Below, piece after piece: positions 16,350 through 20,655 of a stretch of DNA of 33,211 bases (position 1 is its first letter; every line of letters begins with the position of its first letter). The notes below the pieces were generated by a model, which did no database searches, was not told where the DNA came from, and was given only the letters and a program-made list of their open reading frames with translations. The position numbers and the translations under genes were made by a program. Source of the stretch: a bacterium (GTDB lineage Bacteria; Patescibacteriota; Minisyncoccia; UBA6257; JAGOQP01). The DNA is taken from positions 1-33,211 of the forward strand of contig JAKAHY010000009.1 in assembly GCA_021814695.1 (NCBI GenBank). The letters run 5' to 3'.

Positions 16350-17252
16350 ATGCAAATTAGAAAAAATGTTTTATTAAAAAATTATAGCGGTTATAAAATC
16401 GGAGGACCGGCTGATTTCTTTTGCGAACCAAAATCAAAAAAAGAACTCTTAACGGCCCTAAAGTTTTCAATTAATAAAAATATTCCAATTTATGTATTGG
16501 GTGGAGGGTTTAACGTTTTGATTTCGGATAGCGGTTTTAGGGGTTTGGTAATAAAGCCAAAAATTAATTCTTTGGTTATTAAGAATAACAATATAATAGT
16601 AGGAGCCGGCGTTGATTTGGGCAGGGCAATACGAGCTTCTTTAAAAAGCGGACTTATCGGACTTGAGGAATTTTCCGGAATTCCCGGAACGATCGGCGGC
16701 GCCTTGTATATGAACATCCATTATTATCAGGCGCTCTTAAGTAATTTTGTAGAATGGATAGAGTGCGTTGACGATAAATTGAATTTATATACCGTTAATG
16801 CCAAAAATAAAAATTGGAAATATGAATTTTCTCAGATCCAAGCAAACAAACTTATCGTCATTCGGGCATGTTTTAAACTAAAGAAGGTCGGTTCCGAAGA
16901 AAAATGGAAAACGATCGGTAAATCCGATGAAATTATCCGAACGCGTTTTTATAAATATCCCAAAGAACCGTCTGCCGGAAGCGTTTTTCAGAACATCGAT
17001 ACCAAAAAGTTCTATGGAGCGCCGGCAATATCAGCAGCTCATTACATTGACCGTCTGGGTATGAAGGGGACAAGAATCGGTGGGGCGGAAATTTCCGGAA
17101 GACACGCAAATATGATTATAAATAGAGGAGGAGCTACTGCCAAAGATGTTATCGCGCTGGCTTCTTTGATCAAAAAGCGAGTAAGGAGTAAATTTGGGAT
17201 AGAATTTAAGCCGGAAGTTCAGTTTGTGGGATTTAAAAAAAATCCTTTTTAA
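16350..17252 (+). CDS. murB: UDP-N-acetylmuramate dehydrogenase
   Basis: YKIGGPADFFCEPKSKKEL, VLGGGFNVLISDSGFRGLVI, GLEEFSGIPGTIGGALYMN, EPSAGSVFQN, GAEISGRHANMIINRGGATAKDV. Confidence 0.95.
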   Translation: MQIRKNVLLKNYSGYKIGGPADFFCEPKSKKELLTALKFSINKNIPIYVLGGGFNVLISDSGFRGLVIKPKINSLVIKNNNIIVGAGVDLGRAIRASLKSGLIGLEEFSGIPGTIGGALYMNIHYYQALLSNFVEWIECVDDKLNLYTVNAKNKNWKYEFSQIQANKLIVIRACFKLKKVGSEEKWKTIGKSDEIIRTRFYKYPKEPSAGSVFQNIDTKKFYGAPAISAAHYIDRLGMKGTRIGGAEISGRHANMIINRGGATAKDVIALASLIKKRVRSKFGIEFKPEVQFVGFKKNPF

Positions 17253-17341
17253 TGAAAATTTAATAACTTTTAATTTTTTAGTCAGTCATTTCAAATTTTA
17301 TTTTTATTTTTTATTTTTTTGGAGTTATCCACTTTTTTTTG

Positions 17342-17369
17342 TTTCATAATAAAATAAATACTCTATAAT
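17342..17369 (+). promoter_or_regulatory. Possible promoter of the Lys-rich micro-ORF
   Basis: TATAAT at 17364-17369 with a weak -35 (TTTCAT, 16-nt spacer). Confidence 0.4.
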
Positions 17370-17445
17370 TAAAGTAGAAGATTAAATCAATATCGTCAGT
17401 TGGGCGGTTGCTAGTCGACAATCGTATGGCTGACTAAAATTAATA

Positions 17446-17490
17446 TTCCTTTTTGCATTTTCGTGGCCACGAAAATGAGAGCAAAAGGAA
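17446..17490 (+). promoter_or_regulatory. Palindromic leader hairpin
   Basis: Perfect 22-bp palindrome CATTTTCGTGG|CCACGAAAATG (17456-17477) inside an outer TTCCTTTTTGC...GCAAAAGGAA stem whose right arm holds the SD-like AAAAGGAA. Confidence 0.7.
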
Positions 17491-17501
17491 CATTTTTATA
17501 A

Positions 17502-17591
17502 ATGGCAAAGAAAAAGATGACCAAGAAGAAAGTAAAGAAGGTAAAGAAAGTAAAGAAGGTCAAGAAAGTAAAAAAGAGTAAAAAAAGATAA
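17502..17591 (+). CDS. Lysine-rich 29-aa micro-ORF
   Basis: MAKKKMTKKKVKKVKKVKKVKKVKKSKKR*; AAGGA upstream and a terminator directly downstream; below the ORF-track cutoff. Confidence 0.6.
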   Translation: MAKKKMTKKKVKKVKKVKKVKKVKKSKKR

Positions 17592-17605
17592 GGATTAACC
17601 TTGTC

Positions 17606-17640
17606 AAAAAAGCCTCCAATGTGATTTGGGGGCTTTTTTT
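17606..17640 (+). terminator. Rho-independent terminator
   Basis: AAAAAAGCCTCC-loop-GGGGGCTTTTTTT. Confidence 0.8.
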
Positions 17641-17715
17641 GCGGAAAAATCTGTGATATACTGACATCGTTAATGTGGTCCTTATAAAACAATAAGAATA
17701 TAAAACCAATTATCC

Positions 17716-18069
17716 ATGAAAATTATTATAAAAGCGACGGAATTAGAGCTTAACGACGCCTTAAAAACTTACGTTACCGAAAAGTTCGCCCCAATGGAAA
17801 AAATAGTCAAAAGCTTTGAAGCTAACGGAGGGCTCCTATTAAAGGTAGAAATAGCCCGGACAACCCATCATCACAATAAGGGAAATGTTTTCTATGTGGA
17901 ATGCTCTATTACTATAGGAGACAAAGTTCTCAGGATCGAACAGACCGAGCAGGATATGCACGCAGCGATAGATCTCGCACAAGGAAGGCTAAAAGAGGAG
18001 TTGGAGCAGTTTAAAAAGAAAAAAATGGAAAAGAACCGCAAGGAAATAGATAGGATCAAAAACAAATAA
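17716..18069 (+). CDS. hpf: Ribosome hibernation promoting factor (HPF/RaiA family)
   Basis: MKIIIKATELELNDALKTYVTEKFAPMEKIV...VECSITIGDKVLRIEQTEQDMHAAIDLAQGRLKEELEQFKKK. Confidence 0.88.
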   Translation: MKIIIKATELELNDALKTYVTEKFAPMEKIVKSFEANGGLLLKVEIARTTHHHNKGNVFYVECSITIGDKVLRIEQTEQDMHAAIDLAQGRLKEELEQFKKKKMEKNRKEIDRIKNK

Positions 18070-18087: not shown

Positions 18088-20655
18088 ATGTCTCTGCTGG
18101 ATAAAATATTCTCTCCGATAGGGAGTTATAAGAAAATTGTTGAATCAATAAACGCCTTGGAACAAGGCGTTGTTAATCTATCGGATGAAGAAATCAAAAA
18201 TAAAGGCGAGGCGCTCAAATCTAAAATCAGGGACGGAAGTCTTTCCGTGGAAGATGCCCTACCCGAAGCATTCGCTCTTGTCAGAGAAGTTTCCAAAAGA
18301 ACCCTAAGCCAGCGCCACTACGATGTTCAGCTTATCGGAGGCATTGTAATGTCCGAAGGAAAGATTGCCGAAATGGCTACCGGAGAGGGAAAGACGTTGG
18401 CGGCAACTGCACCGGCATATTTGCACGGCCTTACCGGGAAAGGCGTACACGTTATCACCGTCAACGATTATCTGGCACAGCGTGATGCCGTCTGGATGGG
18501 ACAAATTTACGACACTCTCGGTCTTTCTGTGGCTTGCGTTGTTCATGACAATGCATTTATGTATGACCCGAATTGGCACATAACCGAGCAAGGAGACCAG
18601 ATGATAGACAAAGAAAGGGACATAACCGGAAGCTTTCGTGTGCAAAAAGAATATCTAAGGCCGGCTTCAAGAAAAGAAGCATATATGGCCGATATAGTTT
18701 ATGGCACAAACCACGAATTCGGTTTTGATTATCTTAGGGATAATCTTGCGTACTCCACCGGCCAGCAGGTTCAGCGCAAGCCTTATTTTGCGATAATCGA
18801 CGAAGTCGACAGCATTCTCATCGATGAAGCCAGAACTCCTTTGATTATTTCGGCTCCGGACACTCAAGCGGCGGAATACTATAAACTTTTTGCCAGAATC
18901 GTTCAGGCGTTAAAAAAAGACTCCGACTATACCGTCGACGAGAAAGCCAGAGTTGTTCAGATAACCGACGAAGGAATCGGAAATGTTGAAAAAATTCTTA
19001 ATATAGAAAATTTATACGATGCCCAAAATCTTAGGCTTGTGCATTATCTGGAAGAATCTCTTAAAGCCAAAGCCCTTTTCTTTAAAGACAGGCATTATGT
19101 AATAAAAAATCAGGAAATCATAATTGTTGATGAATTTACGGGACGTCTTATGCCCGGAAGGCGTTATTCCGGAGGACTTCATCAGGCGCTTGAAGCCAAA
19201 GAAGGAGTCAGAGTACAGGAGGAACAAAAAACTTTCGCTCAAATTACCATACAAAACTATTTCAGGTTATACGAAAAAATATCGGGTATGACGGGAACAG
19301 CCGCTACTTCATCGGAAGAGTTTAATAAAGTTTATGGGCTTGAAGTGGTGTCAATTCCGACAAACAAGCCTTCACAAAGAAAAGACCATCCGGATTATGT
19401 ATTTAAAACCAAGGAGTCCAAATACGAAGCCATCGTCAAAGAGGTCAAGGAACGGCAAGCCAAAGGGCAGCCTATTCTTGTTGGTACAACTTCTATAGAT
19501 GAAAATCAGCTGCTTTCTACGTATTTCGGCAATGCGGGTATTGCTCACGAGGTTTTAAACGCCAAAAATCACGAAAGAGAAGGAGAGATTATTGCTCAGG
19601 CCGGAAGAGCCGGAGCGGTTATGCTCGCCACCAACATGGCAGGAAGAGGAGTTGATATCGTGTTGGGGGGAAATCCTCCCGAGGCGGATAAAGCGGAAAA
19701 AGTAACAGATGCCGGAGGATTATTCGTTATCGGAACACAGCGCAATGAAGCCAGAAGAATCGATAACCAACTTAGGGGGCGTTCCGGAAGGCAGGGAGAT
19801 CCGGGGGAAACCAGATTTTTCCTATCTCTTGAAGATGAATTGATGAGGGTTTTTGGAGGGCCAAAGATCCAATCATTAATGACAACTCTCAAACTTCCCG
19901 AAAACATGCCGATAGAATCCGGTATGGTTGCCAGAGTTGTTGATGAGGCCCAAAAGAAAGTTGAGGGTATAAATTTTGATGTCCGCAAACATCTGTTGGA
20001 ATACGATACGGTTTTAAACAAACAGAGGCAGACTGTATACAAGAGGCGTCAGAATATGATGGAAAGAATAGAAAAAGGAGAGACAAATGAAGTTGTAAAA
20101 GAAATAGCGTCCGAAACGCTCCAAAAAAATAGCCTGACATTTGAAAGGGAAGAATTTGAAAAGTGGGTTAAAACAGCCGGCTTGTCTGAGAGCATATCCG
20201 AGGATGATTACGATAAAATAAAGCTAGGCGAGCTGCCAAAAAATATAATCGATAAAATAGACGAAGTTTCAAAAAGTCCGGAAACGGGAATGAGAGTTTT
20301 GGCGTCTATCGATATATTCTGGACCAACCACCTGGAAAACTTGGAGGCATTAATGGAATCGGTACGTATGCGCGCTTATGGACAAAGAGATCCTCTGGTT
20401 GAATATAAGCGGGAAAGCTTTCAGCTTTTTCAGAGTCTTATTGCAAATTCCAACGAGTGGGTTATTAACAACATCTTTCTTATAAGAAACGAGGTTCCGG
20501 CTCAGGCGGTTTCATTCGCGTCAAATAATGACGGACACAAAGAAATCGGCAGAAACGATCCTTGTCCCTGCGGAGCGATTAACCCGGAAACAGGTAGGAT
20601 ATATAAATACAAACATTGCGGATTAATAAATGCCCCTTATCATAAATCAAAGTAG
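18088..20655 (+). CDS. secA: Preprotein translocase ATPase SecA
   Basis: RHYDVQLIGGIVMSEGKIAEMATGEGKTL, HEFGFDYLRDNLA, GMTGTAATSSEEFNKVYGLEVVSIPTNKP, NMAGRGVDIVLGG, C-terminal NDPCPCG...HCG zinc-binding tail. Confidence 0.97.
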   Translation: MSLLDKIFSPIGSYKKIVESINALEQGVVNLSDEEIKNKGEALKSKIRDGSLSVEDALPEAFALVREVSKRTLSQRHYDVQLIGGIVMSEGKIAEMATGEGKTLAATAPAYLHGLTGKGVHVITVNDYLAQRDAVWMGQIYDTLGLSVACVVHDNAFMYDPNWHITEQGDQMIDKERDITGSFRVQKEYLRPASRKEAYMADIVYGTNHEFGFDYLRDNLAYSTGQQVQRKPYFAIIDEVDSILIDEARTPLIISAPDTQAAEYYKLFARIVQALKKDSDYTVDEKARVVQITDEGIGNVEKILNIENLYDAQNLRLVHYLEESLKAKALFFKDRHYVIKNQEIIIVDEFTGRLMPGRRYSGGLHQALEAKEGVRVQEEQKTFAQITIQNYFRLYEKISGMTGTAATSSEEFNKVYGLEVVSIPTNKPSQRKDHPDYVFKTKESKYEAIVKEVKERQAKGQPILVGTTSIDENQLLSTYFGNAGIAHEVLNAKNHEREGEIIAQAGRAGAVMLATNMAGRGVDIVLGGNPPEADKAEKVTDAGGLFVIGTQRNEARRIDNQLRGRSGRQGDPGETRFFLSLEDELMRVFGGPKIQSLMTTLKLPENMPIESGMVARVVDEAQKKVEGINFDVRKHLLEYDTVLNKQRQTVYKRRQNMMERIEKGETNEVVKEIASETLQKNSLTFEREEFEKWVKTAGLSESISEDDYDKIKLGELPKNIIDKIDEVSKSPETGMRVLASIDIFWTNHLENLEALMESVRMRAYGQRDPLVEYKRESFQLFQSLIANSNEWVINNIFLIRNEVPAQAVSFASNNDGHKEIGRNDPCPCGAINPETGRIYKYKHCGLINAPYHKSK

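Follow-up and report, generated by a model that had tools for sequence, protein, structure and literature searches.

A lysine-rich micro-gene behind a predicted DnaA site and a folded leader suggests a miniature histone-like protein tied to replication in Paceibacteria

A gene for a lysine-rich microprotein of 29 residues was found behind a predicted DnaA site and a folded leader RNA in a 748-kb Paceibacteria genome, part of which forms the window (the whole stretch of 33,211 nt that was analysed). The gene is conserved in many of these ultra-small bacteria, and in many families the folded leader, of a new kind, accompanies it. This arrangement suggests a miniature histone-like protein whose production may be tied to replication. 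The reading that we favour, and to which we give about an even chance, is that of a monocistronic micro-polycation resembling histone H1 tails, which would bind nucleic acid, most likely the chromosome, and would be subject to DnaA-linked transcription and leader-controlled translation. As far as databases show, the gene and its leader hairpin family are novel, and a partial coverage of the literature on lysine-rich proteins, nucleoid proteins and DnaA boxes in CPR/Patescibacteria returned nothing on the gene.

Organization of the locus

The lysine-rich open reading frame (ORF; 17502-17591, plus strand) is translated as MAKKKMTKKKVKKVKKVKKVKKVKKSKKR and ends with TAA. It is located between murB (16350-17252) and hpf (17716-18069), the latter being followed by secA (18088-20655), as assigned with Pfam and NCBIfam. 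The Shine-Dalgarno sequence AAAGGAA (17484-17490, plus strand), read directly in the sequence, is separated from the ATG by 11 nt, which is a long spacing. Further upstream, the -10 element TATAAT (17364-17369, plus strand) is aligned with the -10 of the family leaders and would place the transcript start near 17376. Downstream of the ORF, the fold contains a Rho-independent terminator, AAAAAAGCCTCCAA...TTGGGGGCTTTTTT (17606-17639, plus strand), although a strict pattern scan for terminators did not list this stem. A hairpin with a T-run was also recognized by eye between the ORF and hpf in the family. An extended -10-like sequence, TGATATACT (17654-17662, plus strand), was read directly 3' of the terminator and is probably a separate hpf promoter; similar sites of the TGN-TANNAT/TANACT type were seen by eye in most family members. 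With this -10-like site placed between the terminator and hpf, the lysine-rich gene appears to form its own transcription unit.

The order of elements in the window is thus DnaA-box 9-mer, -10, hairpin 1, hairpin 2 burying the Shine-Dalgarno sequence, ORF, terminator and then hpf. The region 17380-17640 folds with z = -5.2, none of 200 shuffles being as stable. A first-pass annotation of this DNA had already pointed out the ORF, the TATAAT, an AAGGA-type Shine-Dalgarno sequence, a 22-bp palindrome with arms pairing to it, an imperfect upstream hairpin and the terminator, all of which are in place. It overlooked the DnaA-box 9-mer, the conserved GUCGR loop of hairpin 1 and the extended -10-like site of hpf.

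Conservation of the module

The same order, DnaA box, T-rich DNA, -10, hairpin 1, lysine-rich ORF, terminator and hpf, was found in 13/13 family genomes anchored on hpf, with ORFs of 24-51 aa. Counterparts defined by position and composition were identified in these 13 genomes and in dozens more. When all 271 bp of the region were compared at the DNA level with 100 relatives, most of what was retrieved was lysine-codon repeats, and outside the family the comparison told little. For a covariance search of relatives, as proposed in the first-pass annotation, a model (R1) was built from the 13 family leaders, from the DnaA box to hairpin 1, and contained no ORF sequence. At E<=0.01, covariance-model E-values being rough, R1 matched 53/245 genomes of the order, and 40 of these 53 were new, found by the leader alone. 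An ORF of at least 12 codons with at least 50% K+R, starting 90-180 nt downstream of the match, was present in 29/37 inspected matches outside the family, and at 20/30,000 random positions of the complete genome G005. Among the eight misses, G241 carries the 9-codon ORF MAKKRKKKK and G226 is cut by a contig end. A second model (R2), built from 49 matches, matched 75/245 order genomes. When the requirement was relaxed to at least 9 codons and a start 85-210 nt downstream, a K/R-rich ORF was found in 18/21 of the newly inspected order matches. When R2 was applied phylum-wide to 385 genomes, it gave seven matches. Three were in the order, one of them being the genome of the window; the other four, about the number expected by chance, lay outside it and had no lysine-rich ORF (0/4). 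Coverage is not universal, many families of the order giving no leader-model match; the model is short and its sensitivity limited.

Named secA-anchored loci from other Paceibacteria (n=80; Zambryski-, Vogel-, Nomura-, Campbell-, Wolfe-, Niyogibacteria and others) include about two dozen in which hpf or secA is preceded by a K/R-rich ORF. These mostly carry GTTATCCACA 127-200 nt before the ORF start and GGTCG in the leader, and the leader hairpin is often not evident. In one Staskawiczbacteria locus (L085:126-212), the lysine-rich ORF upstream of hpf has a Cys-rich end (MAKKSKAKKPVAKKAMKECGCKSKCKCK) and is perhaps a metal-binding variant. In another locus (L039, from G008), the hpf match includes one in-frame TGA, which may be a match end effect, an assembly error or a broken gene.

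The downstream neighbour is not constant. In many genomes the module adjoins hpf; in family f15 it precedes a DegP-like protease, identified by eye, and elsewhere it lies directly before secA. The location next to hpf mentioned in the first-pass annotation is true of the window and nevertheless looks incidental, hpf being apparently a separate unit and some relatives having the module beside the protease. The same variation bears on the possibility that the ORF is a lysine-coding leader peptide, in which ribosomes stalling at Lys codons would control the terminator before hpf. Such attenuation would fit a short lysine-rich ORF followed by a terminator and then by hpf, a starvation gene. However, the link to the downstream gene that an amino-acid attenuator requires is broken by the alternation of hpf, secA and the protease, ORFs of up to 79 aa occur and include Ala, Arg, Thr and Pro residues, a -10-like site belonging to hpf lies 3' of the terminator, and it is the leader upstream of the ORF that is conserved. 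The attenuator was rejected, and we regard it as very improbable.

DnaA box and promoter geometry

The DnaA-box 9-mer TTATCCACT (17325-17333, plus strand) was read directly 39 nt upstream of the -10 element. The form found in most relatives is TTATCCACA, and the family leaders carry TTATCCAC in 12/13 cases and TTATGCAC in G007. The distance from the box to the -10 falls into three classes, one helical turn apart, that follow lineage: 30-33 nt in families f6, f15, f27 and f13; 39-41 nt in the window's own family f1 and a few others; and 49-51 nt in Zambryski-, Vogel-, Campbell-, Nomurabacteria and others. As lineages share ancestry, these classes, like the hairpin counts given below, represent few independent events. 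A spacing that is fixed within lineages and quantized in steps of one turn, as computed here, is the pattern expected of a protein touching RNA polymerase from a fixed DNA face.

DnaA is the natural candidate for this protein since the same 9-mer marks the origin near dnaA and since DnaA is a known transcription factor (PMC8203912). In G005, TTATCCACA is present at both the origin and the lysine-rich locus, the 8-mer core being common to both. The locus thus shows what is expected of a DnaA-regulated promoter, a 9-mer matching the organism's own origin boxes near promoter elements. We infer that DnaA binds the box and acts as an activator there.

Similar arrangements occur elsewhere in these genomes. 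All family genomes contain several-fold more copies of TTATCCACW than of the reversed 9-mer. Each also has 2-21 sites at which TAWAAT follows TTATCCAC at a distance of 16-46 nt, compared with 0-1 for the reversed control. The spacings at 69 such sites, orthologues included, group at 28-32, 37-41 and 48 nt, and gaps separate these groups. In G005, a -10-like hexamer lies 28-42 nt downstream of TTATCCACA in 6/8 cases versus 3.9% of random positions. A DnaA regulon is a possible reading of the DnaA-box promoters in G005 and the 13 family genomes. DnaA-box 9-mers phased upstream of -10 elements are found in G005 at C1 24042, 173939, 307654 and 457528, and the genes downstream of phased boxes in this genome include, as identified by eye, one for a MraZ-like protein, with which the division cluster begins, one for a prepilin-like protein and one for a predicted membrane protein. 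Type IV pilin-like genes at two further loci, L238 (G228) and L213 (G054), have a DnaA box or a near match and GGTCGA in the leader. The occurrence of a box and a nearby GGTCG before other genes (pilins, the predicted membrane protein) is a hint of a wider regulon, and GGTCG may serve other genes besides the lysine-rich one.

In almost every relative T-rich DNA follows the box, which could also mean that the region is the chromosomal replication origin, with the DnaA box as a part of it. The complete genome G005 refutes this for that organism: its GC-skew minimum is at 124.8 kb, inverted boxes are at 125.1 kb and dnaA at 131 kb, whereas the locus is at 301.4 kb, about 176 kb away, and has a single DnaA box instead of several boxes at a skew minimum. 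We therefore give this explanation next to no weight. The origin candidate of G005 itself spans C1 124771-131536, with the GC-skew minimum, the inverted DnaA-box pair and dnaA about 6 kb away. A second inverted pair, about 65 nt apart, is located far from the origin at G005:C1 457463-457535, upstream of the MraZ-like gene; similar clusters of boxes on both strands with the same spacing are present at G002:C16:5239, G003:C15:18504, G004:C3:5944 and G007:C4:66688.

The leader RNA

Folding of the leader region (17380-17510) gave z = -3.7 relative to shuffles, and two hairpins were distinguished. Hairpin 1 (17395-17434, plus strand) consists of a stem P1, an internal loop and a stem P2, and was assigned from the fold and from covariation in both stems. 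Its apical loop NNNGUCGR (17411-17418, plus strand), closed by UUG/CAA, is conserved across the family leaders: GTCG is present in 13/13 and the closing pairs are nearly invariant, while the outer stem varies freely in sequence and retains its pairing. In the stem, 75/104 cells are paired versus 51+-4.4 when partners are shuffled among sequences (0/2000), and 33-52 when partners are slid. In the wider hairpin set, native pairing of P1 is 14.7 versus 9.0+-0.46 with partners from other genomes (0/5000), and pairs 4-5 of P2 occur as many pair types. The leader thus has the covarying base pairs that define a structured cis-regulatory RNA, and the stems that the first-pass annotation wanted sought in relatives do covary in P1 and P2. 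Rfam gave no match at the leader at gathering or relaxed thresholds, and assignment to a known RNA family was rejected.

Hairpin 2 (17446-17490, plus strand) buries the ribosome-binding site. Its arms TTCCTTTTTGC...GCAAAAGGAA pair the Shine-Dalgarno AAAGGAA, which has a probability of being unpaired of about 0.03, and enclose the perfect 22-bp palindrome CATTTTCGTGGCCACGAAAATG (17456-17477). The Shine-Dalgarno-like stretch is buried in 12/13 folded family genomes (probability unpaired at most 0.40). Hairpin 2 is missing in G008 and seemingly absent in families f6 and f15. Its sequences are unrelated between genera, and conservation of the palindrome sequence across the family was not found; what is kept is the position of hairpin 2 and its pairing with the Shine-Dalgarno sequence, and the perfect palindrome is one of the local ways of achieving this. 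The first-pass idea of a structured regulatory leader is supported for hairpin 1 by its covariation; its expectation that relatives would keep palindrome and ORF together is borne out for the ORF, but not for the palindrome.

Ribosomal-protein leaders and CsrA-type hairpin loops likewise combine a conserved-loop hairpin upstream of the ORF with sequestration of the Shine-Dalgarno sequence. The leader described here shares both traits, but has no Rfam match, and GUCGR has no known reader.

The microprotein

The 64 proteins collected have a median length of 25 aa (range 12-79 aa) and consist of K 49%, A 18%, R 10%, T 6.5%, S 4%, V 4% and P 2%, with about 0.3% acidic and hardly any aromatic residues. 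The shortest members have 9-15 aa, e.g. MAKKKVAKKKKK. Substitutions between close pairs fall mainly at third codon positions (G001/G002 6/8, G187/G191 6/7, G191/G192 5/6, G026/G185 4/5); the evidence is limited to these pairs, wider pairwise totals having been set aside as biased by the selection of similar pairs. This bias indicates that the peptide is kept and not merely a purine-rich tract, which answers the question of amino-acid constraint raised by the first-pass annotation. Its proposal of a self-contained polycation gene is well supported by the presence in 13/13 family genomes, the recovery by the leader alone in the order, the third-position bias and the different neighbour in one family. 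An AT- or purine-rich intergenic stretch with an accidental ORF and palindrome was also considered, as runs of AAA/AAG arise easily in an AT-rich genome. It is refuted by the 13/13 synteny, the recovery of lysine-rich ORFs through the leader hundreds-fold above background, the covariation and the codon-position bias, and its probability is negligible.

The window protein matched nothing in Pfam or NCBIfam. Among the relatives, the longest match the Pfam family PF07382 (HC2) below its cut-off of 40 bits, with 18.8 bits for L059 and 15.2 bits for L118 at best, and HC2 membership was rejected. The 64 proteins do belong to the H1-tail-like compositional class, being Lys/Ala-rich and of low complexity with few acidic or bulky residues: the peptide is H1-tail-like by composition, judged from its predicted sequence, and not an HC2 member. 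HU is present in 11/13 family genomes; its replacement by the lysine-rich peptide was rejected, and the peptide would thus not be the sole nucleoid protein. The other two genomes, G004 and G010, gave no HU (PF00216) match though they are 96% complete. If this absence is real, the peptide may take on a larger share of the nucleoid load in these two genomes.

Proposed function and comparison with known systems

In the favoured reading, RNA polymerase would read the promoter jointly with a protein bound to the DnaA box; the simplest candidate is DnaA, acting as activator, and this activation would link peptide supply to replication state. The mRNA would start with hairpin 1, whose GUCGR loop may be the recognition element of an RNA-binding factor. 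Hairpin 2, in the window's own family, would close the ribosome-binding site and keep translation low or gated. The disordered polycation would then coat nucleic acid, and we infer that its target is DNA, most likely the chromosome; it may also feed back on its own gene through the leader. The conserved loop, set against a peptide that varies freely in length and order, argues against the peptide as the specific reader and makes a separate RNA-binding factor as likely a reader as the peptide. A more complete circuit, coupled to replication, would have a polycation of 9-79 aa, activated by DnaA on one helical face at three distances and restrained by the GUCGR hairpin, with the polycation possibly being the reader; this version is put forward tentatively and is rather doubtful.

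The main rival is a polycation serving RNA, either as a basic peptide associated with ribosomes or rRNA or as a gene-encoded polyamine substitute, with leader control like that of ribosomal-protein operons. At 9-15 residues, the shortest members would be unusually small for histone-like proteins, which counts against a micro-histone, and they are more polyamine-like; the structured 5' leader, the presence of hpf as a neighbour in many genomes and the HU already present point the same way. Conversely, the promoter has a DnaA box, the longest members resemble H1 tails and match HC2 weakly, below the threshold, and a protease replaces hpf in family f15. We consider a role in RNA possible, though on the unlikely side.

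For the micro-polycation on the chromosome, several systems offer partial parallels. Chlamydial HC2/HctB is Lys/Ala-rich, of low complexity and variable in length through the number of Lys-rich pentamers (PMC2848022). The lysine-rich peptides share these properties, but HC2 has 165-237 aa compared with 9-79 aa, and gene context and leader differ. The C-terminal tails of AlgP and PhaF have histone H1-tail composition and bind DNA, AlgP being also found on polyphosphate granules (PMC9239181). The peptides resemble H1, HC2 and AlgP tails in composition; in AlgP, however, an N-terminal domain of about 120 aa precedes the tail, whereas here the whole protein is tail-like. In Borrelia, DnaA activates dnaX-ebfC, and the nucleoid protein EbfC, an antiactivator, binds the 5' UTR as DNA and RNA (PMC9879097). 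This is a precedent for the proposed DnaA-activated nucleoid-protein gene with a product binding its own 5' UTR, although EbfC is a nucleoid protein of the usual kind, its gene is cotranscribed with dnaX, and the sites are in the UTR, not helically phased upstream of the -10. At E. coli nrdAB and other DnaA-regulated promoters, DnaA at nearby boxes can activate or repress (PMC8203912), whereas Paceibacteria show one box at three distances about 10 bp apart, at several promoters per genome.

Significance

Most Patescibacteria have not been cultured; their genomes are tiny, and few of their regulators are known. The lysine-rich gene is widespread, below the normal length of annotation, and combines a new RNA family with a promoter that appears to be phased to a DnaA box. 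It offers a testable case of DnaA activating transcription from phased positions, and of a minimal protein, polycationic throughout, that selection has kept across a large evolutionary distance. If the proposed reading is true, it would give a handle on how replication is linked to chromosome state in Patescibacteria.
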